From Zobellia uliginosa (GTDB taxonomy: Bacteria; Bacteroidota; Bacteroidia; Flavobacteriales; Flavobacteriaceae), in the NCBI RefSeq assembly GCF_900156625.1, contig NZ_FTOB01000001.1, positions 62,001 through 126,000 on the forward strand: DNA of 64,000 bases. Direction: 5' to 3'. Made by a program: the position numbers and the translations under genes. A model generated the notes under the pieces. That model was not told where the DNA came from. It was given only the letters and a program-made list of their open reading frames with translations, and did not search any database. Below, piece after piece: positions 49,350 through 64,000 of this stretch (its first letter is position 1; every line of letters begins with the position of its first letter).

Positions 49350-50105
49350 CTATAGTTCCCTGATTTTTATATTCCTGAAAGCCACTTGGTCTCCATGGTC
49401 TTGCAAGCCGATCTTTCCTGTAGTGAATTTTCCGAAATACTCCCAGTCAGCAAACTTCGATTTTGACACCATTTCCTTCCACATTTCATTTCCCACAGGA
49501 AACTCAACGATAAGCTTTCCATTCATGGCAATACTTCCTTTTTCCTCTTTATGGTTTATGGTAATCACCATCGTGTTCCATTCCCCTACGGCATTGGTCA
49601 CATCTTCCGAAGGCGCCACCATATCGTATAGGGACCCCGCTTGGTGGGTCGTACCGTTTTTGGCATCGGGATGTTTCTCGTTATCCAAGACCTGCACTTC
49701 AGGTCCGGTCTGATATGCTTCCGAAAGTTCAGGATTTTCACTTACGCCCCAAAATACCCCACTGTTACCCCCTTCGGAAATTTTCCATTCCAAAGACAAC
49801 ACAAAATCGGTGTATTCCTTTTCAGTGACCAAATTAAAAGCCTCCCCTTTTTTTCTGTCCTTTGGAGGATAGAAAACCATGGCCCCATCTTCCAATTTCC
49901 AATTCTCGGAAACTCCTTCTTTATTGTATTCCTTCCAACCGTCAAACGAAGAACCGTCAAAAAGAACCGTCCACTCTTGAACCGGCTTCTCCACCTCGGT
50001 CTCAGCTACGACTTCGGCTTCCGTTTCCGCTTGTTTTTTTTCGGCCTTTTCCTTACATCCAAAGGCAACAACTGCGGTAAAAAGGATAAGTAACAGATTC
50101 TTCAT
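49350..50105 (-). CDS. DUF1080 (3-keto-disaccharide hydrolase family) lipoprotein
   Basis: Lipoprotein of 251 residues from the ATG at 50105. The frame extends to 50174. Lipobox VAFGC is followed by a Lys/Glu-rich linker and a concanavalin-like beta sandwich of the DUF1080 family (about 45-251), with WTVLFDGSSFDGWKEY, SGNSGVFWG-type and GPEVQVLDN segments and the ending GKIGLQDHGDQVAFRNIKI. Some members of this family cleave 3-keto glycosides. It follows the TIM-barrel gene on the same strand after 122 bases, which fits a keto-sugar pathway. Confidence 0.88.
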   Translation of the reverse strand: MKNLLLILFTAVVAFGCKEKAEKKQAETEAEVVAETEVEKPVQEWTVLFDGSSFDGWKEYNKEGVSENWKLEDGAMVFYPPKDRKKGEAFNLVTEKEYTDFVLSLEWKISEGGNSGVFWGVSENPELSEAYQTGPEVQVLDNEKHPDAKNGTTHQAGSLYDMVAPSEDVTNAVGEWNTMVITINHKEEKGSIAMNGKLIVEFPVGNEMWKEMVSKSKFADWEYFGKFTTGKIGLQDHGDQVAFRNIKIREL

Positions 50106-50227
50106 AGGTCTTGATAATTTATGTGTTAGTTTTTCGAATACGGAAGAAAAAATGTTTCTCTTGCCAGAAGACAAGAGAAAACATTCTTCATTATTTTAAA
50201 AAAATATGTCCACTACTCAATTTTGGA

Positions 50228-51280
50228 CTAAAGCCCTAAAATTTTCTTGAGCATTTCCTTATCTACAGCTGCACCGGCAAAATCGTCAAAGGTCTTTTCC
50301 GTAGCTTCGATAATATGATCTTGAATAAAGACCGCTCCTTCACGGGCCCCTTGTTCAGGACTCTTAATACAGCATTCCCATTCCATTACGGCCCAAACAT
50401 CGCAACCGTACTGGGTAAGTTTAGAGAAAATAGTTTTGAAATCGATTTGGCCATCGCCCAAAGAACGGTACCTACCGGCACGATCACCCCAATCATTATA
50501 ACCACCAAAGGCCCCTTTCTTACCTGTTGGATTGAACTCGGAATCCTTCACGTGAAACGACTTGATGAACTCATGGTAGTGGTCTATATATTCAATATAA
50601 TCCAGTTGTTGCAATACAAAATGACTTGGATCGTAAAGGATATTTACACGCTTATGGTTTCCTGTAGCGGCAAGAAAACGCTCAAAGGTATCCCCGTCGT
50701 GCAAGTCTTCTCCCGGATGTATTTCGTAACACACATCAACACCTTGTTCGTCAAAATGGTTCAGAATGGGCATCCATCTTTTGGCCAATTCCTCAAAACC
50801 CATTTCAACCAAGCCTGCTGGTCGTTGAGGCCATGGGTGCCATGTATGCCAAAGTAATGCCCCTGAAAAGGTAGCATGGGCATTAAGACCTAACCTTCTA
50901 CTGGCCGTAGCGGCTTTTTTAACTACGTCTACCGCCCATTCGGTACGGGCTTTCGGATTGTTCTTTACGGCATCGGGAGCAAAACTATCGAACATAAGGT
51001 CATAGGCCGGATGAACCGCGACCAATTGACCTTGGAGATGTGTAGAAAGCTCAGTGATCTCAAGGCCGTATGAATTTACTTTTCCCTTAAGCTCGTCACA
51101 GTAATCCTGGCTTTCGGCAGCCTTGTCCAAGTCTATTAAAAAACTCTCCCATGTAGGTATCTGAATACCCTTGTACCCTAAATCTGCAGCCCATTTACAC
51201 ATGCCGTCCAATGTATTGAACGGTGCTTTACTGTCTACAAATTGCGCTAAAAATACGCCGGGTCCTTTAATTGTTTTCAT
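50228..51280 (-). CDS. Sugar phosphate isomerase/epimerase-like TIM-barrel protein (cytosolic)
   Basis: Xylose-isomerase-like TIM-barrel protein of 350 residues. No signal peptide is present. Metal-ligand segments are seen in VCYEIHPGEDLHDG, NILYDPSHFVLQQ, SFHVKDSEF and AVMEWECC. The family acts on sugars and keto sugars as isomerases, epimerases or lyases. It is divergent from a GMC oxidoreductase and upstream of the DUF1080 lipoprotein, so I infer a role in processing an oxidised sugar after import. Confidence 0.88.
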   Translation of the reverse strand: MKTIKGPGVFLAQFVDSKAPFNTLDGMCKWAADLGYKGIQIPTWESFLIDLDKAAESQDYCDELKGKVNSYGLEITELSTHLQGQLVAVHPAYDLMFDSFAPDAVKNNPKARTEWAVDVVKKAATASRRLGLNAHATFSGALLWHTWHPWPQRPAGLVEMGFEELAKRWMPILNHFDEQGVDVCYEIHPGEDLHDGDTFERFLAATGNHKRVNILYDPSHFVLQQLDYIEYIDHYHEFIKSFHVKDSEFNPTGKKGAFGGYNDWGDRAGRYRSLGDGQIDFKTIFSKLTQYGCDVWAVMEWECCIKSPEQGAREGAVFIQDHIIEATEKTFDDFAGAAVDKEMLKKILGL

Positions 51281-51435
51281 ACTTTTATTGTTTGTATTAG
51301 TAACAGGTTTCTTCCTTTTGTATATCCTTATAAAGAAAAACCCTATATTTAATTCTCGTAAATAGTCAAAACGACTTGCCTTAGGAAAGTTATAAATATA
51401 GGCATTACATCAGGTTTAAAACAAGAAATACTATT

Positions 51436-53139
51436 GTGAATAAAGAAGAAATATTCGATGCCATTGTTGTCGGAACAGGAATTAGCGGTGGTTGGGCCGC
51501 TAAAGAATTATGTGAGAACGGATTAAAAACTTTAGTACTTGAACGAGGACCTATGGTGCGGCATATCGAAGATTACCCCACCATGCACGATGACCCTTGG
51601 GACTACCCCCTAAAAGGCGAGCTCTCAAAGGCCGACAAAGAGAAATACCACATCCAATCTCGAGTAGGCTGGGCCCCAAAGGAAGATTCAAAGCATTTCT
51701 TCGTGAACGACCTTGACCATCCCTACGTAGAAACCAAGCGTTTTGATTGGATCAGGGGCTACCAAGTCGGTGGCCGCTCCTTGACCTGGGGCAAGCAGAG
51801 CTACCGTTGGAGCGACCTTGATTTTGAAGCCAATAAAAAAGAAGGTATAGGCGTAGACTGGCCCGTACGCTATAAAGATATTTCACCTTGGTACGATAAG
51901 GTGGAAAAATATATTGGAGTAAGTGGAGAAAATCTGGGTCTACCCCACTTGCCCGATGGTATCTTTCAGCCCAAAATGGACCTGAACTGTGTTGAAGAGG
52001 AATTTAAGGCCTCAGTGGCCGAAAAATTTGACGATGGCCGTTTGATCACCATCGGTCGTGCGGCACATATCACCGACCCCAATGCCGATTTTGAAGGCAG
52101 GGGAACATGCCAAAATAGAAATAGATGCTGGAGAGGCTGCCCATTTGGGGGATACTTTAGCAGTAATTCTTCTACCTTGCCCGCTGCGGAACGTACCGGA
52201 AATATGACACTACGGCCTAATTCCATCGTATATGAAGTGATATATGACGACACTACCAAAAAGGCTACTGGCGTGAAGATTATCGATGCCGAAACCAACG
52301 AGAAGATTGAATTTAAGGCGAAAGTGATTTTTCTATGTGCCTCATCAATGGCATCGGTCGGTATCCTTTTGCAATCGAAGAGCGAGCGTTTCCCCAATGG
52401 CTTGGGCAACGACTCCGACGCACTTGGCCGTGGCATTATGGACCACCATTACAAATTAGGTGCCTCGGCAAAAGTAGACGGTTATTTAGACAAGTACTAC
52501 AAAGGACGAAGACCCAACGGATTCTACATTCCCAGATTTGTCAATTTAAACGAAGAGACCAGACGCGAAGGCTACCTGCGCGGCTTTGGCTACCAAGGCA
52601 GCGCCAGCAGACAAGACTGGTCGGCCTCAATCGGAGAAATGGGATACGGAAAAGACCTAAAAGAATCTATTCTAAAACCCGGGCATTGGCAAATTGGCGT
52701 TACCGGTTTTGGCGAATTTTTACCCTATGACGATAATCGCGTAACCCTTAGCCGAACCAAAAAAGACAAATGGGGACTACCCCAACTGGATTTTGACGTT
52801 GAGTTCAAGGAAAACGAATATAATATGCGCGAGGACATTAAAAAGGAAATCGTTGCCATGTTCAAAGCGGCGGGCTTCAAAGATGTACAGCCTTATGACG
52901 AAGTAACCGGTCCGGGCTTGGGCATTCATGAAATGGGAGGCGCACGTATGGGGCATAACCCCAAAACGTCAATAGTGAACAAACACAACCAATTACATAC
53001 CGTTCCCAACGTATATGTAACGGACGGGGCTTTCATGTCATCGTCAAGTTGTGTCAACCCTTCGTTGACCTATATGGCGTTTACGGCAAGGGCCGCTAAC
53101 CATGCCGCCGAACAATTAAAGTCCGGAAAACTTTCATAA
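51436..53139 (+). CDS. GMC family oxidoreductase, glucoside-3-dehydrogenase-like
   Basis: FAD-dependent oxidoreductase of 567 residues. The N-terminal FAD motif is GTGISGG (13-19), with further GMC segments GYQVGGRSLTWGKQSYRWSD and GAFMSSSSCVNPSLTY-type C-terminal motif. Cys225, Cys231 and Cys235 (CQNRNRCWRGCP) resemble the Fe-S-binding cysteines of bacterial FAD sugar dehydrogenases. No signal peptide is present. Relatives are exported with a Tat-type small subunit, but no such gene is adjacent here. The start is GTG. It is divergent from a TIM-barrel gene, and a paralogue lies at the window end. Confidence 0.9.
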   Translation: MNKEEIFDAIVVGTGISGGWAAKELCENGLKTLVLERGPMVRHIEDYPTMHDDPWDYPLKGELSKADKEKYHIQSRVGWAPKEDSKHFFVNDLDHPYVETKRFDWIRGYQVGGRSLTWGKQSYRWSDLDFEANKKEGIGVDWPVRYKDISPWYDKVEKYIGVSGENLGLPHLPDGIFQPKMDLNCVEEEFKASVAEKFDDGRLITIGRAAHITDPNADFEGRGTCQNRNRCWRGCPFGGYFSSNSSTLPAAERTGNMTLRPNSIVYEVIYDDTTKKATGVKIIDAETNEKIEFKAKVIFLCASSMASVGILLQSKSERFPNGLGNDSDALGRGIMDHHYKLGASAKVDGYLDKYYKGRRPNGFYIPRFVNLNEETRREGYLRGFGYQGSASRQDWSASIGEMGYGKDLKESILKPGHWQIGVTGFGEFLPYDDNRVTLSRTKKDKWGLPQLDFDVEFKENEYNMREDIKKEIVAMFKAAGFKDVQPYDEVTGPGLGIHEMGGARMGHNPKTSIVNKHNQLHTVPNVYVTDGAFMSSSSCVNPSLTYMAFTARAANHAAEQLKSGKLS

Positions 53140-53267
53140 TCATGTATAACGACCGATAAATCAATCTGATATTCTAAAATATCACCTAATATTGTTCGCT
53201 CGTTTGTATATTGTTAACCTAAATTTTTCGCTAATACCGTGAAAAACTAGCTAACCGCAATAACTAT

Positions 53268-53732
53268 ATGGAAAACGCTTCAGCCCGAAATTTGTGGGGA
53301 GATTACCTTGACAAACATTTAGAACATGCTTTTGTCGATGCCCCGCAAGTCGTTCATTTCTGCAATAACGAACAAGATGCCAACGAATGCGCGGCACTGG
53401 TCAAAAAAGGCATCAAACGCGCCACCTCCCACTCGTTGTTAGGTCTGCAGTACCGCAAACAGCCATTGCCCAAGATTGGCGATTTTATGATCGTAACCAA
53501 TTGGGAAGGCGAGGCACAGTGCATCGTTAGAACTACCGCCGTAAAATTAAGGCCCTATTTCAGTATAGACGAGGCCTATGCCCAACGCGAAGGTGAGGGC
53601 GATAAAAGCTTGGCCTATTGGAAAAAGGTGCATTGGGACTACTTTACCAAAGAACTGGCCGCTTTCAACCGCAAGCCAAACGAGAGCATGATCATTGTCT
53701 GTCAAGAGTTCGAAAAAATATTCGACCGTTAA
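53268..53732 (+). CDS. ASCH domain protein
   Basis: Cytosolic protein of 154 residues with an ASCH domain, a PUA-like fold linked to RNA binding. It shows GIKRATSHS early, IVTNWEGEAQCIVRTT in the middle and the family ending motif EGEGDKSLAYWKKVHWDYFTKEL. The function is unknown. It lies in the same direction as the GMC gene, 128 bases away, and is probably independent of the sugar pathway. Confidence 0.88.
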   Translation: MENASARNLWGDYLDKHLEHAFVDAPQVVHFCNNEQDANECAALVKKGIKRATSHSLLGLQYRKQPLPKIGDFMIVTNWEGEAQCIVRTTAVKLRPYFSIDEAYAQREGEGDKSLAYWKKVHWDYFTKELAAFNRKPNESMIIVCQEFEKIFDR

Positions 53733-53829
53733 CCGGTTTTTATAGGAATTGAAAAGCTGTGCTATTTTGTGATACCACAGAAGCCCCATTTATTGCAAAG
53801 TTTTTTTACCTTGTACGGTATCAACGTAA

Positions 53830-57054
<3,225 letters not shown>

Positions 57055-57081
57055 GTTTGTATCAACTTTACAAGTAAACTA

Positions 57082-57120
57082 AAAATCTCCCTGAAAGTAT
57101 TTTACTTTCAGGGAGATTTT
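57082..57120. terminator. Strong bidirectional terminator
   Basis: Arms of 18 bases (57082-57099 and 57103-57120), containing AATCTCCCTGAAAGT and its complement, pair perfectly around a 3-base loop with A/T runs at both ends. It separates the GH2 gene from the convergent AT-rich gene pair. Confidence 0.92.
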
Positions 57121-57125
57121 TAGTT

Positions 57126-57653
57126 TTAGTTATAGATTTTATTAGCAAATCGTACATACATTCTATTGTTATTGTGACCAAAGTGTAATTGTATTTGAAA
57201 ATCATCTTTATCCCAAAGGACATGGTCAATTTCTTTATGCTCTATACTGCCCTTTTTTAATGACGTAATACGCTCTTTAATATTTGATGTAAAGTTTTCA
57301 TCATTTGTTTTTTCAGAAGATTCTTCTTGTAATATTTCATCAACGACCAAGATGTTACTAGTGTAGCCATAATACTCACTAATTATTTTGTAATATGACG
57401 TATCCACAATTTCTGGAAAGAAAATGGTTATACTGTTTATAGTATTATCTTCAGAAGTCTCAACTCCAATTTGACCAATTGACTTTCCAAAAAAATCTAC
57501 CTTTGGTTCCAATATCATGTATAAATTGTCCATTGCAGTAACTTGCGTCACACCTATTGACAATGCTTCACTAATATCTTTACCCAACAATGTATCAAAA
57601 AAGGGAACCTTCATAAATAAATTCGATAAAACTAAAACAATTATTATTCTCAT
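57126..57653 (-). CDS. Hypothetical protein in AT-rich insert
   Basis: Unrecognised protein of 175 residues. The first 14 residues are hydrophobic and could be a short signal or anchor. The remainder is acidic and mixed alpha/beta (VTAMDNLYMILEP, INSITIFFPEIVDTSYYKIISEYYG), ending in a beta strand (RMYVRFANKIYN). It starts four bases after the stop of the preceding lipoprotein gene, so the two form an operon. The DNA is visibly richer in A and T than the flanks, suggesting recent acquisition. No homology-based function. Confidence 0.6.
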   Translation of the reverse strand: MRIIIVLVLSNLFMKVPFFDTLLGKDISEALSIGVTQVTAMDNLYMILEPKVDFFGKSIGQIGVETSEDNTINSITIFFPEIVDTSYYKIISEYYGYTSNILVVDEILQEESSEKTNDENFTSNIKERITSLKKGSIEHKEIDHVLWDKDDFQIQLHFGHNNNRMYVRFANKIYN

Positions 57654-57657
57654 AAAC

Positions 57658-58980
57658 TTAATCGCAATCGCCGGTAGTTAACAAACTAGTTTGATATATC
57701 CCCGCATTTTTCATTTTAAAAGGTTCAACATAAGATATTTGACCTCCTCGAAATTTCATTGCTGCCTTTAAGCTTTTAATCCATGTATCATTAACATCTT
57801 CTTTTGTTGCATCAAAGTTAGTTAAATACCATAATTCTACGGCACGATTTGCAGCAGTTACGGCTTCAGCAGTTATATTAGATGCTTCTCCGTTGCGCCT
57901 CCACGAAGGAAGTGTAAAATATACTCGATTTAATTTAACGTACACTTCTTTAGTGTCAACTCTACCATTTACAAGTCGATAAGAATGAAATGTTTCCTCC
58001 ATATTATCTACTGCCGCTGCGGTAACCGCAGACCCAGGTGGCTTATAAAACTCAAAACTCCCACAATTCACAAAAAAGATAGGATTTCCCGGCTCATTAA
58101 TAGGAAAAACCAATTCCTCTTCCGGACAATCATTACTTAAATACTTACAAGCCCCACTTTGGACTTTACCTTCAGTACAACCGGAATCGCCTCCACCACC
58201 ATCTGTACCAAATTGCCCAAAACTTCCTATACCCACTTCTACACTTGGTGTAGGTGCAGGTGTAGTACTTGGCGCACTATCAATTGCTACGTAAACATAA
58301 CTTGGTGTTGAAATATTTGTATAATTATCTCCTTCAGTTGAGGTGGAGCCACCACCACTACCACTACCACTACCACTACCACTACTACCATTACTATTAT
58401 TACCAGATGTTCCGGCAACAGAAATACTACCACATGGAACTGGGGCAGCCTCTTTTCCAGAAATAGAACTACTTGCAAAACTACCAAGATTGTAATAAGC
58501 TATATCTCCTCGGAAAGGAGCTTCTTTTCGATCGCTACTAGAATAAGTAGGGTAATAGCTTTCATCAACCTCATAACGCAACACTATTGGTTGTTTAAAA
58601 TTTCCATGATTGTCCTCTTTTACGACAACATTATAAAATACATTATATGGACTATTAGGAACATACATTCTAACCGCATAAGAATAATTTCCAATTGAAT
58701 CCAGAACTTGTAAAATACCCTGACTATCTAAAACAATGTTTTCCGAATTAGCTGACTGACCCCAAGATATAGAACTGTTTTGAATACTATACTCAATATT
58801 CTCTTTCAAAGAAGGAATATCATCAATTGTCCATGATTGTAATTCAAAATTATTGGGCTCTTGATCTGTTATATCTGCAGCGACAGTCGAAATTTCTTGA
58901 TCTTCTGATAAGTTTTCATTTTGGCAACTTTGAAATACAAAAAGAAAAATCAGGAGAACTGAGTAGATAAGCTTTTTCAC
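57658..58980 (-). CDS. Hypothetical Gly/Ser-repeat lipoprotein
   Basis: Lipoprotein of 440 residues with lipobox VFQSC (Cys19). The N-terminal domain (about 25-190) has a secretory beta-rich look. A low-complexity Gly/Ser linker (about 200-215, SGSGSGSGSGGGS) coded by tandem hexamers leads to a C-terminal region (about 260-440) with five further cysteines and an ending ICQTS-like tail (GIYQTSLLTTGDCD). It is the first gene of a two-gene operon. Base composition is unlike the neighbouring sugar genes. Function unknown; surface display is plausible. Confidence 0.65.
   Translation of the reverse strand: MKKLIYSVLLIFLFVFQSCQNENLSEDQEISTVAADITDQEPNNFELQSWTIDDIPSLKENIEYSIQNSSISWGQSANSENIVLDSQGILQVLDSIGNYSYAVRMYVPNSPYNVFYNVVVKEDNHGNFKQPIVLRYEVDESYYPTYSSSDRKEAPFRGDIAYYNLGSFASSSISGKEAAPVPCGSISVAGTSGNNSNGSSGSGSGSGSGGGSTSTEGDNYTNISTPSYVYVAIDSAPSTTPAPTPSVEVGIGSFGQFGTDGGGGDSGCTEGKVQSGACKYLSNDCPEEELVFPINEPGNPIFFVNCGSFEFYKPPGSAVTAAAVDNMEETFHSYRLVNGRVDTKEVYVKLNRVYFTLPSWRRNGEASNITAEAVTAANRAVELWYLTNFDATKEDVNDTWIKSLKAAMKFRGGQISYVEPFKMKNAGIYQTSLLTTGDCD
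58355..58384. repeat. Tandem hexanucleotide repeat (CCACTA)5
   Basis: Five perfect copies of CCACTA, with degenerate copies on both sides, lie in the frame of the lipoprotein gene and encode Gly-Ser pairs on the minus strand. Since the unit is six bases, copy-number change would alter the linker length without a frameshift. Confidence 0.85.
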
Positions 58981-59093
58981 ACGTGTTAAATTTAAATTTT
59001 CAGGTTAATATTCTGATATGAAAGTAAGAATTTAAGTGTTAACTGAAAACTAAATTTAGAATAATTAAAAAATTCCATATTTAGAAAAACAAA

Positions 59094-59130
59094 AACCCCC
59101 GAAAGCAAAATACTTTCGGGGGTTCTTATT
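59094..59130. terminator. Bidirectional intrinsic terminator
   Basis: AACCCCCGAAAG (59094-59105) and CTTTCGGGGGTT (59113-59124) form a perfect 12-bp hairpin with a seven-base loop. It ends the minus-strand sugar operon that begins near 63083. No plus-strand gene runs into it. Confidence 0.88.
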
Positions 59131-59153
59131 TATTGCGGATTTTCTTTAGACTA

Positions 59154-60293
59154 TCAGTCTTCTAGTTCTACCCACGTATTACCGTTTTTATGCGATTCTA
59201 CAGTAGCTTCGATAAAGTTCATACCCCGGACACCATCGGTCATGGTTGGGTATTCCGCGCTATCGTATTGCTCACCCCTAATGGCTTTGGCCACACCTAA
59301 ATAGATGTTCGCCATAGAATCAAAAATACCTTCAGGGTGTCCTGGAGGAAGTTTGGTTCCGCCTAATGAAAGTTCACTGTTATAGGCATGCCCAGGCTTA
59401 TACACCTGTGTAGGTTTGGTATCGCTCAGAACATACAGGTAATTAGGATTCTCTTGCTCCCATCTGAAAGCCCCTTTTTCGCCGTAAATAGCTATTCCAA
59501 GACCATTTTCCTCACCAGTAGCTACTTGACTACTTCGAATAACCCCTTTAACATGGTCACTCATTCTGATAAGAACCGTTCCATCAACATCCATCTGGTT
59601 GTCTTCGTACAAATAGTTGAAGTCGCTCAAAATAGACTTGATCTTTAAACCTGTGGTGTACTCTACCATATTGAAGGCATGTACCCCGATATCTCCGATA
59701 CAAGAACTGATTCCTGCCTTTTTGGGGTCTAAACGCCAAACCGAAGAACGTTTCTCTTGATCGTGGATTATCTCGTTGATCCATCCTTGATAATACACAG
59801 CGTCTACTTTGTGGATCCTTCCTAACTCTCCATTCTTGATCATTTCACGCATTTGGCGTACCATAGGGTAACCGGTATAGGTATGGGTCAATGCAAAAAC
59901 GGTACCCGCCTTTTCATGGGCGGCCTGTAGTTTTTTAGCTTCCTCCAATGAGGTGGTCATAGGTTTTTCACAAATCACGTGAAACCCGTTTTCCAACAGT
60001 TTCAATGCCATAGGAAAATGAAGAAAGTTCGGGGTCAACACCGAACAAACCTGTATACGCTCGTCTTCAGGAAGCTTCATTTCTTCTTCGATCATCGTAT
60101 CAAAATCTTTATAGATACGGTCGGTAGGCACGTCAATCTCCTTGGCAAAAGCCATATTTTGCTCAAAATCAGGGTTGAATACCGCTCCTACTATTTGATA
60201 GTTGTCATTAATATGCGATGCTACACGATGTAGTACACCTATTAGAGAGTCTCCTCCTCCACCTAAAATTCCAAGTCTGATTTTTTTTGGCAT
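59154..60293 (-). CDS. Gfo/Idh/MocA family NAD(P)-dependent oxidoreductase
   Basis: Soluble sugar dehydrogenase/reductase of 379 residues. The Rossmann segment GILGGGGDSLIG is at 8-19, the family EKP motif at 109-111 (ICEKPMTTS), and the catalytic Asp/His appear in CIGDIGVHAFNMVEYTTG (about 193-210). No signal peptide is present. It is the last gene of the operon with a TIM-barrel epimerase, a DinB-like protein and an MFS transporter. I infer oxidation or reduction of a keto sugar in the cytosol. Confidence 0.92.
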   Translation of the reverse strand: MPKKIRLGILGGGGDSLIGVLHRVASHINDNYQIVGAVFNPDFEQNMAFAKEIDVPTDRIYKDFDTMIEEEMKLPEDERIQVCSVLTPNFLHFPMALKLLENGFHVICEKPMTTSLEEAKKLQAAHEKAGTVFALTHTYTGYPMVRQMREMIKNGELGRIHKVDAVYYQGWINEIIHDQEKRSSVWRLDPKKAGISSCIGDIGVHAFNMVEYTTGLKIKSILSDFNYLYEDNQMDVDGTVLIRMSDHVKGVIRSSQVATGEENGLGIAIYGEKGAFRWEQENPNYLYVLSDTKPTQVYKPGHAYNSELSLGGTKLPPGHPEGIFDSMANIYLGVAKAIRGEQYDSAEYPTMTDGVRGMNFIEATVESHKNGNTWVELED

Positions 60294-60378
60294 TTTGTAA
60301 TCCTTTTAATTAGTAAAAAGTCGCTATTTGAACCTTTTGCGTTCGTTATTTTTTAAGAGTTTGAATTTAATAAAATAA

Positions 60379-61605
60379 CTATGATTTATAGGCTATTTTT
60401 TCATTTTTGAACAAAATGGAGAACAGTAGTAGCACTAGAAACGCAAAAGCGGAAGGATACAACCAAATCGTACTCCAATCGTGTTGTCCGCCATCCAACA
60501 CATAGGTATCCGTAATGGCTCCGGCTATCCAGAAACCTATGAGCATACCAACGCCATAGGTCGCTAAAGTAATTAGGCCCTGAGCTGCGCTTTTGTATTT
60601 TACCCCTGCTTTACTATCCGTATATATCTGTCCGGAAACAAAGAAAAAATCGTAACAAACACCATGTAAGGCTATACCCGTTATTAACATGAATACAAGC
60701 TCGCCCGTATCTCCATATGCAAACATCAGGTACCTAAGTCCCCAAGCCAACATAGCCGCTACGATAGTCATTTTAAAACCGAACCGTTTAAAAAAGAAGG
60801 GCAGGAGCAAGAGAAAAAGAATCTCGGAAATTTGCCCGATAGTCATTTTTCCCGCAGGGTTGGCTACTCCGATTTCCCCCAAAAACTGCCCCGCATGCTG
60901 ATAATAGAAGGCCAAGGGAATACAGATGAATACCGATGCCAAAAAGAATATCAAGAAATTACGGTCTTTTAACAATGCCAAAGCGTCTAATCCTAAAATA
61001 TCGGACAGTTTTATTTTTTGGCTTCTATCAGCGGTCGGCGGTGTGTTGGGCAGTGTAAAACTGAACACCCCCAAGAGCGCCGATGACACAGCGGCCATTA
61101 AAAAAGTATTGCGCAAAAACCCTTCGGTAATACCTTCTTGTGAATCCCAATTAAAAAAACTGATGAGCAATCCGGCGGTAATCCACCCTATAGTTCCAAA
61201 AACACGTACGAAGGAAAACTCTTTGGCCGGGTCTTTCATCTGATTAAATGAAACGGAATTCACCAAGGCCAAAGTTGACATATACATAATCATATAAGCC
61301 AGCAGAAATGGAAAAAATCCAGAAAAATCCGTCGCTTGGTACATGGCGTACATAAGTGTTGCTCCGATTAAGTGCAGCACCCCCAAAATGCGTTCCGCAT
61401 TAAAATATCTATCGGCAATGAGTCCAATAATAAAGGGCGCTAAAATAGCGCCCCAAGATTGTGTTGAATAAGCTAGGGCGATTTCACTGCCTGTAGAGCC
61501 TAAACTATTTGGAAGATATATACCCAAGGTCACGAACCAGCCTCCCCAGATAAAGAACTCCAAAAACATCATTAATGAAAGCTGTGCCTTAATCTTTATC
61601 GTCAT
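60379..61605 (-). CDS. NupG-like MFS transporter
   Basis: Inner-membrane transporter of 408 residues with about 12 helices. It resembles the nucleoside:H+ symporter (NupG/Nuc_H_symport) branch of the MFS, seen in the N-terminal LSLMMFLEFFIWGGWFVTLGIYL helix and in GIALHGVCYDFFFVSGQIYTD, which is typical of the group. In Bacteroidota these transporters often sit with sugar dehydrogenases and epimerases. Here it probably imports the oxidised sugar product. Confidence 0.88.
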   Translation of the reverse strand: MTIKIKAQLSLMMFLEFFIWGGWFVTLGIYLPNSLGSTGSEIALAYSTQSWGAILAPFIIGLIADRYFNAERILGVLHLIGATLMYAMYQATDFSGFFPFLLAYMIMYMSTLALVNSVSFNQMKDPAKEFSFVRVFGTIGWITAGLLISFFNWDSQEGITEGFLRNTFLMAAVSSALLGVFSFTLPNTPPTADRSQKIKLSDILGLDALALLKDRNFLIFFLASVFICIPLAFYYQHAGQFLGEIGVANPAGKMTIGQISEILFLLLLPFFFKRFGFKMTIVAAMLAWGLRYLMFAYGDTGELVFMLITGIALHGVCYDFFFVSGQIYTDSKAGVKYKSAAQGLITLATYGVGMLIGFWIAGAITDTYVLDGGQHDWSTIWLYPSAFAFLVLLLFSILFKNEKIAYKS

Positions 61606-61614
61606 TGCGAAGCC

Positions 61615-62058
61615 TTACTTTTTATAAGTCATATAATCCGTTCGAAAGAGCTCCAACCCATTCGCCTTAAAATCCACCTCTATAAGACTTCTATAATAAG
61701 CCGACTCATTAATGATGTGAAAAAGTAGGTCTTGCACCGTATGGATCAACAGTTTCCCTTCGGCATCCTCATAATCTATACGTTTATCAAAATCATCTGT
61801 GGCCGAGGTAATCTCAAAAGAGTTACGTTGGTTTTCGTAATGAACGTCGCCCCATGTACTTAAATCGTGCAACTGCCCCATCTGATAGGTAGGTTGCCCC
61901 TTACCGATATACTCGTTATAGATATGATGCATGTTCAAAACATCACTAAAGAGCGCCATACTTTTTGGAGGAACACTTTCCAGTGCCGTGCAAGCTTCAA
62001 TGAGCTTTTTGTTACAGTAGAAATTATAGTCGAACAGCTGATTGAAAAATACTTTCAC
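61615..62058 (-). CDS. DinB-like four-helix protein
   Basis: Soluble protein of 147 residues with the helical layout and likely metal His residues of the DinB superfamily: an N-terminal FNQLFDYNFYCNKKLIEACTAL helix, NMHHIYNEYIG near 42-52 and LLFHIINESAYYRSLIEVDF near 111-130. Members are thiol or metal-dependent enzymes of mixed function. It lies inside the sugar operon with only 9 and 23 bases to its neighbours, which suggests a pathway or housekeeping link that is not yet clear. Confidence 0.7.
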   Translation of the reverse strand: MKVFFNQLFDYNFYCNKKLIEACTALESVPPKSMALFSDVLNMHHIYNEYIGKGQPTYQMGQLHDLSTWGDVHYENQRNSFEITSATDDFDKRIDYEDAEGKLLIHTVQDLLFHIINESAYYRSLIEVDFKANGLELFRTDYMTYKK

Positions 62059-62081
62059 GGTAACGGATATCTATTTTAAGT

Positions 62082-63083
62082 TTATTTGATTTCTTTCGAT
62101 GCTTTTAGCAACAGTTCTTTGGTTGCTATAATTCCTTCTTCCTCGCTCAGGCCGTTTCCTTCATATTCGACCCCCACAAAACCTGTATACCCATGGTCTT
62201 TTACCATTTGAAGCATTTTTACGTAGTCAATTTCGGTTTCATTACCCTCTGCATCGAAATCATGCGATTTGGCACTGACCGCCTTGGCATATGGCATCAA
62301 CTCTTTTACGCCTTTATATTTATCGTACATAAGCTCACACTCACGGGTACCCTTTTTGCGGGTAATACAAAAATTTCCGAAATCGGGCAAGGTACCGCAA
62401 TTGTCCATTGCCACGGCCTTCATGACCTCGGCGTGCATGGCCCCATTGGAAGATAGCCCCCCATGGTTTTCTACAAGAATATTAATATTTTTTCCCTTTG
62501 CGTAGGTACACAACTTTGTAAGACCATCTATAGAATTCTTTTTCCACTCTTCTGGGTCATTGCTTCCGCTCAGATTAACACGAATAGAATGGCACCCCAT
62601 TGCAGCTGCGGCATCCACCCATTTCTTATGTTTTTCTACGGTCTCGTCCCTTTCCTTTTCATCACTAACGGCCAGGTTGCCTTGACCATCTATCATGATC
62701 AAAACATTCTGCAGCCCATGCTTTTTGGCCTCGGCATTCGATTTCTCTACAAAAGCCGCCATGGCCTCTTCCGAATAACCCGCATCGGACAACTCGGGGT
62801 TGTACAATTGACTGACATATTCCAAACCAGAAAAGCCCCATTTTTTGGCCTTTTCCGCAAACGTATATGGGTCTACCCCATCCTCTCGGACCATTCTATG
62901 TATAGACCATTGTGCTAAAGATAATTTAAAGAAAGGTTCTATTTCGACTTCGACTTCCTCAGTTTCCGATGAAGCCTCTGTCTGTTTTTCCTCTTTTTTG
63001 GTTCCCTTGCAAGCCGCAAGACCTAAAATTGAAAGGGCCAAACCGGCATTAGAGCTATTTCTTATAAAGTTTCTTCTTTTCAT
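62082..63083 (-). CDS. Sugar phosphate isomerase/epimerase-like TIM-barrel protein, exported
   Basis: Xylose-isomerase-like TIM-barrel protein of 333 residues. The N-terminus has a Tat-like twin arginine (RRNFIRNSSNAG) and a lipobox LAAC (Cys25), followed by an acidic linker, so it is predicted to be a periplasmic lipoprotein. The body shows INILVENHGGLS, CGTLPDFGNFCI, KAVSAKSHDFDAEG and FVGVEYEG, the metal-ligand segments of the family. It is the first gene of the operon running to the Gfo/Idh/MocA gene and is divergent from a GMC oxidoreductase. Confidence 0.88.
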   Translation of the reverse strand: MKRRNFIRNSSNAGLALSILGLAACKGTKKEEKQTEASSETEEVEVEIEPFFKLSLAQWSIHRMVREDGVDPYTFAEKAKKWGFSGLEYVSQLYNPELSDAGYSEEAMAAFVEKSNAEAKKHGLQNVLIMIDGQGNLAVSDEKERDETVEKHKKWVDAAAAMGCHSIRVNLSGSNDPEEWKKNSIDGLTKLCTYAKGKNINILVENHGGLSSNGAMHAEVMKAVAMDNCGTLPDFGNFCITRKKGTRECELMYDKYKGVKELMPYAKAVSAKSHDFDAEGNETEIDYVKMLQMVKDHGYTGFVGVEYEGNGLSEEEGIIATKELLLKASKEIK

Positions 63084-63223
63084 TATTTACGATTAGTTTA
63101 TTGAATTTTAAGGATTTGGGGGCAGATTACCCTTTAATGTATGACCTTAACAAGATGTATAGCGAATAAATGTAGAAAATTAATTTAATATTTAATAAAT
63201 TTATGGACTAAACAATTTTGTAC

Positions 63224-64000
63224 ATGAGCAAATTTTATTACAACGAAGAGCAAGAATCATATGACGCGATTGTAGTAGGTACAGGTATAAGTGGTGGCTG
63301 GGCAGCAAAAGAGCTTTGCGAAGCCGGACTAAAGACCTTGGTGCTGGAGCGCGGACGTATGGTGAAGCACATCGAAGACTATGAAACTGCGAACATGGAC
63401 CCCTGGGATTTTCCTAACGGAGGAAAGCCAACAAAAGAGGACATCGCAAAACAACCGAAACAGAACCGAACAGGCTATACGACCAATGCCGCAAGTAAGA
63501 TGTGGTTCGTAAACGACCTTGAACATCCGTATAATGAAATACAGCGTTTCGACTGGATGCGTGGTTACCACGTTGGTGGGCGTTCCTTACAATGGGGTCG
63601 ACAGAGCTACCGCTGGAGCGATATTGATTTTGAAGCGAACAAAAACGAGGGTATTGCCGTTGATTGGCCGGTTCGATATAAGGACATTGCCCCTTGGTAC
63701 GCCAAAGTAGAAGATTATATAGGTGTTAGTGGCGAGGCATTGAATTTGCCACAATTGCCCGACAGCAATTTCCTTCCCCAAATGGAACTCAACTGCGTTG
63801 AAGAACATTTTAAGGAAAAAGTAGCGGAGTCTTTTGACGGCCGCGCCGTAACCGTCGGTAGGGTAGCCCATATCACGGGAACCAAAAACTTTGATGGTCG
63901 CTCAAAATGTCAATTTAGAAATAGATGTATAAGAGGGTGTCCTTTTGGAGCATATTTCAGCAGCCTTTCATCGACCTTACCTGCGGCAGAAGCTACTGGA
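63224..64000 (+). CDS. GMC family oxidoreductase, partial (second copy)
   Basis: The N-terminal 259 residues of a flavin oxidoreductase that continues past the window. The FAD motif GTGISGGWAAKELCE is nearly identical to that of the copy at 51.4 kb, as are GGRSLQWGRQSYRWSD and the Cys cluster at 229, 235 and 239 (CQFRNRCIRGCP). It is divergent from the exported TIM-barrel gene across 140 bases. A small Tat-type subunit might lie downstream outside the window. The start is the ATG at 63224. Confidence 0.9.
   Translation, partial: MSKFYYNEEQESYDAIVVGTGISGGWAAKELCEAGLKTLVLERGRMVKHIEDYETANMDPWDFPNGGKPTKEDIAKQPKQNRTGYTTNAASKMWFVNDLEHPYNEIQRFDWMRGYHVGGRSLQWGRQSYRWSDIDFEANKNEGIAVDWPVRYKDIAPWYAKVEDYIGVSGEALNLPQLPDSNFLPQMELNCVEEHFKEKVAESFDGRAVTVGRVAHITGTKNFDGRSKCQFRNRCIRGCPFGAYFSSLSSTLPAAEATG

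Follow-up and report, generated by a model that had tools for sequence, protein, structure and literature searches.

A stretch of 64,000 nucleotides from Zobellia uliginosa (contig NZ_FTOB01000001.1, positions 62,001 to 126,000 of the forward strand, here G000:C16:62001-126000; hereafter the window), lying within a genome of 5.30 Mb, raises the question of whether its right-hand part, from position 49350, holds two copies of a sugar-oxidizing module or one. A TIM barrel gene on the minus strand and a GMC family gene on the plus strand form a divergent pair there twice, and a preliminary description made from the sequence alone, which noted this layout correctly, had taken it for duplicated modules of an oxidative keto-sugar pathway for glycosides. 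The locus is a single conserved cluster rather than two modules, and its GMC genes are the only paralogues: in an all-against-all BLASTP comparison (E ≤ 1) GMC1 and GMC2 were 68 % identical but the TIM barrel proteins TIM1 and TIM2 gave no match to each other, and TIM1 and a Gfo/Idh/MocA dehydrogenase gene (Gfo) occur without GMC1 between them in 22 of 70 related loci. Because only the GMC genes are paralogous and loci free of GMC1 exist, the reading as duplicated modules was rejected. The oxidative keto-sugar part of the proposal was supported, with TIM1 closely related to a solved hydratase and with fructose and glucose dehydrogenases as the best solved relatives of the GMC proteins. Judged from sequence, the cluster likely serves one non-hydrolytic route of glycoside breakdown, in which periplasmic C3 oxidation and cleavage would be followed by import and by cytosolic hydration and reduction.

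Gene organization of the cluster

The gene order is DUF1080 – TIM1 – [GMC1, ASCH, GH2] – Gfo – NupG-like MFS – DinB-like – TIM2 | GMC2 – small subunit – TIM3. The genes lying in the window are:

49350 to 50105, minus strand: DUF1080 / 3-keto-disaccharide hydrolase family lipoprotein (PF06439, 167 bits)
50228 to 51280, minus strand: TIM1, 2-hydroxy-3-keto-glucal hydratase homologue without signal peptide (AP_endonuc_2; PDB 8ro4)
51436 to 53139, plus strand: GMC1, glycoside 3-dehydrogenase-type catalytic subunit without a small-subunit gene of its own (GMC family)
53268 to 53732, plus strand: ASCH-domain protein (PF04266, 79.9 bits)
53842 to 57054, plus strand: GH2 LacZ-type beta-galactosidase (NF052611, 1089 bits, cut-off 999)
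59154 to 60293, minus strand: Gfo/Idh/MocA dehydrogenase without signal peptide, proposed 3-keto-hexose reductase (PF01408, PF22725, PF02894; 3v5n, 2.6e-91)
60379 to 61605, minus strand: NupG-like MFS transporter, Nuc_H_symport (PF03825, 387 bits)
61615 to 62058, minus strand: DinB-like protein that has lost the NHxxxH motif of its family (family alignment)
62082 to 63083, minus strand: TIM2, TIM barrel protein with paired arginines (RR) of the twin-arginine translocation (Tat) type and a lipoprotein-like Cys, candidate 3-keto-glycoside eliminase (4ovx, 3.9e-112)
63218 to 64000, onward to about 64936, plus strand: GMC2, glycoside 3-dehydrogenase-type catalytic subunit (L001:1219-2937)

The probable start of the DUF1080 lipoprotein, MKNLLLILFTAVVAFGC, was picked by eye, the mechanical open reading frame (ORF) extending to 50174. 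TIM1 and TIM2 match AP_endonuc_2 at 128 and 93 bits. The cluster overruns the window edge and ends at about 66.6 kb, the part beyond comprising the remainder of GMC2, a small subunit (PF13618, 99.8 bits) that bears an RR signal of the Tat type and whose start is overlapped by one base by the GMC2 stop codon, and then a third TIM barrel protein, TIM3, with an RR signal and an end at about 66599. Profile matches confirmed the families named in the preliminary description (DUF1080, two TIM barrels, GMC, Gfo/Idh/MocA, Nuc_H_symport and GH2/LacZ), which had overlooked the ASCH-domain gene and the genes past the window edge.

Conservation in related genomes

The cluster was surveyed in 79 named loci drawn from the best 80 of 529 confirmed relatives, so that close relatives are over-represented. 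A gene was scored as present by tblastn at E ≤ 1e-8 with at least 35 % query coverage, and the counts are lower bounds, as many stretches stop at contig or flank limits. The nearest named relative among the scanned genomes was Zobellia russellii (GMC1 93 %, GMC2 97 %), in a scan that may omit records very close to the source genome. TIM1 and Gfo were each present in 72 of the 79 loci, TIM2, DUF1080 and the small subunit in 71, GMC2 in 70, MFS in 60, ASCH in 55, GMC1 in 53, the DinB-like gene in 48 and TIM3 in 43. GH2, which the preliminary description had listed next to the modules, occurred in only 2 and is therefore regarded as a local passenger, not a conserved part.

Between TIM1 and Gfo, in the 70 loci with both, GMC1 was found in 48, nothing recognized in 17 and ASCH alone in 5; ASCH follows GMC1 in 46 of the 48. 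A group of 11 loci, labelled Aquimarina except for one or two, lies on a single strand without GMC1, in the order GMC2, small subunit, TIM2, MFS, Gfo, TIM1, DUF1080, and the Gfo of these loci is only 42-45 % identical to that of the window. The doubled divergent appearance would come from the placing of a second GMC gene, a paralogue, between TIM1 and Gfo, probably by gain here rather than loss elsewhere; the five loci with ASCH and without GMC1 suggest some losses of GMC1. The gene yicC lies on the same stretch in 54 of the 79 loci and nrdA in 27. A probable non-hydrolytic route of sugar cleavage is retained in many marine Flavobacteriaceae, which are important degraders of algal sugars, often at the same genomic place.

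TIM1 is a hydratase homologue

The hydratase assignment of TIM1 follows from its match to PDB 8ro4, which was deposited as a 2-hydroxy-3-keto-glucal hydratase (phmmer, E 4.5e-164, 549 bits, residues 1-350 on 1-349). The two proteins are identical at 230 of 349 aligned residues (65.9 %, full length), and four motif segments, which contain E/H, D, H and E, are common to both. By this homology TIM1 counts as a hydratase homologue and not as the isomerase or lyase of the preliminary description. The same start, MKTIKGP, without a signal peptide, is seen in 71 of the 72 TIM1 relatives, and of 149 genomes of the family that were sampled, 71 hold a homologue (E ≤ 1e-60).

The GMC proteins and the small subunit

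The best solved relatives of both GMC proteins are the catalytic subunits of fructose dehydrogenase (about 152 bits) and of flavin adenine dinucleotide (FAD)-dependent glucose dehydrogenase (132 and 137 bits). Kinship with alcohol or choline oxidases, which had been named as the finding that would speak against a glycoside pathway, was not borne out: none was among the 14 and 8 solved GMC relatives listed, and choline dehydrogenase models scored 36-59 bits with cut-offs above 600 (PRK02106, 47.6 and 58.8 against 605). Among NCBIfam models the highest scores were those of cholesterol oxidase (68 and 65 bits against a cut-off of 850), followed by pyranose oxidase (52 and 63 bits against 545) and only then by choline dehydrogenase, and no model came close to its cut-off. 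GMC2 aligns with the His and Asn that are replaced in mutant fructose dehydrogenase entries and with three Cys, which we take to be iron-sulfur cluster ligands. The small subunit carries RR within its first 8 residues in all of 72 relatives.

According to the available text of PMC6950322, GMC proteins of the genus Zobellia have already been proposed as glycoside oxidoreductases, and those of AA3 clade A group in a published tree with characterized FAD-dependent glycoside oxidoreductases at 53-58 % identity. The window GMC proteins probably belong to this clade; gene neighbourhoods and small subunits, covered here, do not feature in that text.

Predicted pathway

The pathway proposed here starts from what is established directly, namely homology-based gene identities, a recurring gene set and order, export signals read from the sequence and GMC1 as one clade. 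GMC2 would cross the inner membrane together with its Tat-signal small subunit and, in the periplasm, oxidize a glycoside at its C3 hydroxyl. Cleavage of the resulting 3-keto-glycoside, by elimination or hydrolysis, would fall to TIM2, the DUF1080 lipoprotein or both, each of which has an export signal, and would yield an aglycone or reducing-end sugar together with a 2-hydroxy-3-keto-glycal or a 3-keto-hexose. The NupG-like MFS transporter may bring the cleavage product in, whereupon the unsignalled TIM1 is predicted from its solved homologue to convert 2-hydroxy-3-keto-glycal to 3-keto-hexose in the cytosol, and the Gfo/Idh/MocA enzyme would reduce the 3-keto-hexose to hexose. GMC1 would be a second catalytic subunit.

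TIM2 is a candidate 3-keto-glycoside eliminase. By profile it matched 4ovx, for which no function is given, and 11 further entries, comprising 8 C-glycoside deglycosidase subunits, the isomerase Art22 and 2 tagatose epimerases. An E-N-H motif is invariant in 36 rows, and a segment that scores a weak 13.8 bits aligns it with EIH in DgpC1; in AtOGE, as far as the available text goes, the catalytic His lies two residues on from a metal ligand, a position at which Glu is the ligand in C-glycoside enzymes (PMC10628242). In a Foldseek search with the AlphaFold2 model of TIM2 (predicted local distance difference test score 90.5) the deglycosidases ranked 2 to 10 after 4ovx, and AtOGE was not among the listed fold matches, which excludes nothing. 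A Cys within residues 9-45 is found in 68 of 70 TIM2 proteins and RR in 23 of 70. TIM3, with an RR signal in 37 of 39, is similar to hydroxypyruvate isomerase and sugar epimerases. PDB titles for the relatives of the DUF1080 protein name a putative glycosyl or sugar hydrolase or a 3-keto-disaccharide hydrolase domain, and the protein could act by hydrolysis or elimination; its family has 17 matches in the genome.

Several observations weigh against this scheme. Neither of the two His in strand 7 of DgpC1 is conserved in the aligned segment of TIM2 (AVSAK as compared with HFHFK), and when the TIM2 model is ranked by Z score, the C-glycoside deglycosidases (24.7-26.4) come below Art22 (29.1) and an epimerase-like protein (26.8), with epimerases next at 24-25. 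No cytochrome c gene was recognized among the cluster ORFs listed, unlike in Hymenobacter and Xanthomonas, and the genes most similar to the cytochrome of the Hymenobacter cluster are at other places in the genome. TIM1 is also found apart from GMC genes, both Rhizobium loci with TIM1 and Gfo lacking a GMC2 match, and the order of steps around the membrane depends on the reading of signal peptides.

Comparison with known systems

One component of Caulobacter LacABC is, we assume, a cytochrome c. In the available text of PMC9007349, the cluster of LacABC and DUF1080 also includes a transporter, a pair of epimerases and a reductase, with examples in Bacteroidetes too. The window cluster is alike in having a predicted periplasmic sugar 3-dehydrogenase with DUF1080 beside it (PF06439), a transporter, two sugar epimerase-like proteins and a putative reductase. 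It differs in that no cytochrome c was recognized, and from what is described there in its additional GMC1, ASCH and DinB-like genes.

The four-enzyme pathway of A. tumefaciens is described in the available text as GlycDH, co-expressed with a TAT-pathway protein, AtOGE, AtHYD and Gfo (PMC10628242); the GlycDH of Rhizobium GIN611 is termed a GMC oxidoreductase in that of PMC6950322. To this the window cluster corresponds in its dehydrogenase of the GMC type and the Tat partner of that enzyme, in its pair of TIM barrels and in a putative Gfo reductase, and 8ro4 is probably AtHYD itself. A glycoside dehydrogenase with a Tat-type small subunit (GMC2 and PF13618) and a 2-hydroxy-3-keto-glucal hydratase (TIM1), which are features of the 3-keto-glycoside pathway, were recognized here through homology alone. 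Unlike the A. tumefaciens pathway as available, the cluster has the MFS transporter, DUF1080, export signals on TIM2 and TIM3 and a second GMC without partner, and the protein proposed as eliminase is similar to C-glycoside deglycosidases, with AtOGE absent from the matches listed.

The keto-glycan pathway of B. thetaiotaomicron, BT2156-BT2159, presumably has DUF1080, TIM barrel and Gfo steps as here, and its C3 oxidation we take to be carried out by Gfo-type enzymes as opposed to GMC. BT_2158 and BT_2159 models scored 43 and 23 bits on the window Gfo with cut-offs of 750 and 650. BT2157 is named a 3-ketotrehalose hydrolase in the available text of PMC9007349.

Plasmid loci for comparison were hand-picked from two listings, which showed 25 of 329 records and 30 of 406. 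The PF13618-type subunit adjoins GMC in all six annotated loci with GMC that were examined. Plasmids of Hymenobacter and Xanthomonas sacchari hold GMC, this subunit, a NupG-like permease, Gfo, a TIM1 homologue, DUF1080 and cytochrome c together. Pseudoalteromonas has GMC (31 % identical to GMC2), subunit, Gfo, TIM1 homologue, DUF1080 and an MFS gene without match to that of the window; in Croceicoccus and Ketogulonicigenium, GMC, subunit, Gfo and TIM1 homologue are present and no DUF1080 is annotated. In Catenovulum, GMC, subunit, DUF1080 and a TIM barrel gene lie close to sulfatase and glycosidase genes, with no match to TIM1 or Gfo. Compared with the Gfo proteins encoded next to TIM1 homologues, the window Gfo is 35-41 % identical in 6 of the 8 plasmid loci and 27 % identical in a seventh.

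The type of pathway has been published (PMC10628242, PMC9007349), and new here are the cluster anatomy, the compartment reading and the partner-less GMC1 clade. Literature searches, with subscription papers largely outside their coverage, found in titles and the openings of abstracts no description of the cluster in Flavobacteriaceae beyond the cited papers as available.

GMC1 and its missing partner

Among 58 genes best matched by GMC1, 56 have no adjoining small-subunit gene (50 after TIM1, 5 second tandem copies and 1 at a contig start), one of the 56 being too close to a contig end to judge; the 2 with an adjoining small subunit are from Joostella and Galbibacter. Of the other GMC genes, 70 of 72 adjoin a small subunit. 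A tree was built from 57 rows chosen from 141 collected and rooted on the plasmid homologues, the program warning of the long branch L118, and GMC1 genes outside the tree were assigned by best match. In it, 24 partner-less GMC1 genes group as a single clade (100/99), to which the two partnered genes are sister, all nested inside partnered GMC proteins, and this topology argues for a single loss of the small subunit. A tree that also included BetA of E. coli and the fructose dehydrogenase of Gluconobacter was discarded, both branches having run to length 10, and a ratio of nonsynonymous to synonymous substitution rates was left unused, since no more than 1 pair of GMC1 genes and 2 pairs of GMC2 genes gave a value. 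Two tandem copies of GMC1 occur in L041, L044, L046, L066 and L081, the second copies forming a clade of their own.

GMC1 most likely works with a borrowed small subunit, probably that of GMC2. The fuller proposal, that the GMC1 clade has lost its own small subunit permanently and that the neighbouring GMC2 subunit serves two catalytic subunits of different substrate range, is put forward tentatively, because the genome holds other small subunits (on contig C6, with pieces on C15 and C27), so that the GMC2 subunit is not the sole possible partner. Partner sharing, if it holds, would add a modest new principle to what is known of exported dehydrogenase complexes and would be easy to test.

The alternative that GMC1 is a cytosolic glycoside or keto-sugar oxidoreductase, working by itself and independent of any small subunit, is unlikely. 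In its favour, GMC1 adjoins the gene of the predicted cytosolic hydratase, none of the 55 judgeable TIM1-linked or tandem GMC1 genes adjoins a small-subunit gene, and no RR signal lies in the first 12 residues of the 58 rows, although GMC2 genes likewise have none. The segment CX5CX3C is, however, retained in 55 of the 58 rows, the sister clade and the tree outgroup rows carry a small subunit, and 43 of 51 GMC1 loci also carry GMC2 with its small subunit, the stretch ending earlier in the remaining 8.

Two independent parallel pathways, with GMC1, TIM1 and DUF1080 acting on one glycoside class and GMC2 and TIM2 on another, are improbable. The GMC proteins differ at about one third of positions and fall in separate clades, each beside a different TIM barrel; against this, TIM1 and TIM2 match different enzyme types, in addition to having no BLASTP match to each other, no small subunit stands beside GMC1, and TIM1, Gfo and TIM2 co-occur in the loci without GMC1 described above. 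That the cluster serves a cyclitol or other polyol and not glycosides is very improbable. The IolE (myo-inosose dehydratase) score of 58.8 bits on TIM1 and the IolG (inositol dehydrogenase) score of 57.3 bits on Gfo speak for it, but both lie far under the curated cut-offs (290 and 355 bits), the hydratase match of TIM1 reaches 549 bits, and DUF1080 is conserved in the cluster.

Further observations

A third set of GMC, small subunit and TIM3-like genes lies at L006:1099-18973 (within G000:C6:28000-47000), beside what we take to be SusC/SusD-like, sulfatase-like and glycosidase-like genes, and looks like an oxidative module inside a sulfated-polysaccharide utilization locus. Contigs G000:C15:1 and G000:C27:1 both start inside near-identical small-subunit-like genes, and another dehydrogenase gene may have been lost in the assembly gap there.

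Between GH2 and Gfo (57126-58980) lie a lipoprotein-like ORF with a Ser/Gly-rich stretch and an adjoining small ORF. The larger had no Pfam match and the smaller no NCBIfam match, and PADLOC gave only weak matches for the two; Z. russellii has no space for the pair, which is perhaps a recent insertion.

The DinB-like label of the preliminary description fits the family alignment, 35 of 37 scanned members matching PF05163, with the window protein itself having no Pfam match over the cut-off. The NHxxxH motif is kept in 46 of 47 relatives and lost here (NESAYYR); Z. russellii reads NESTHYR, and the gene is still in place.

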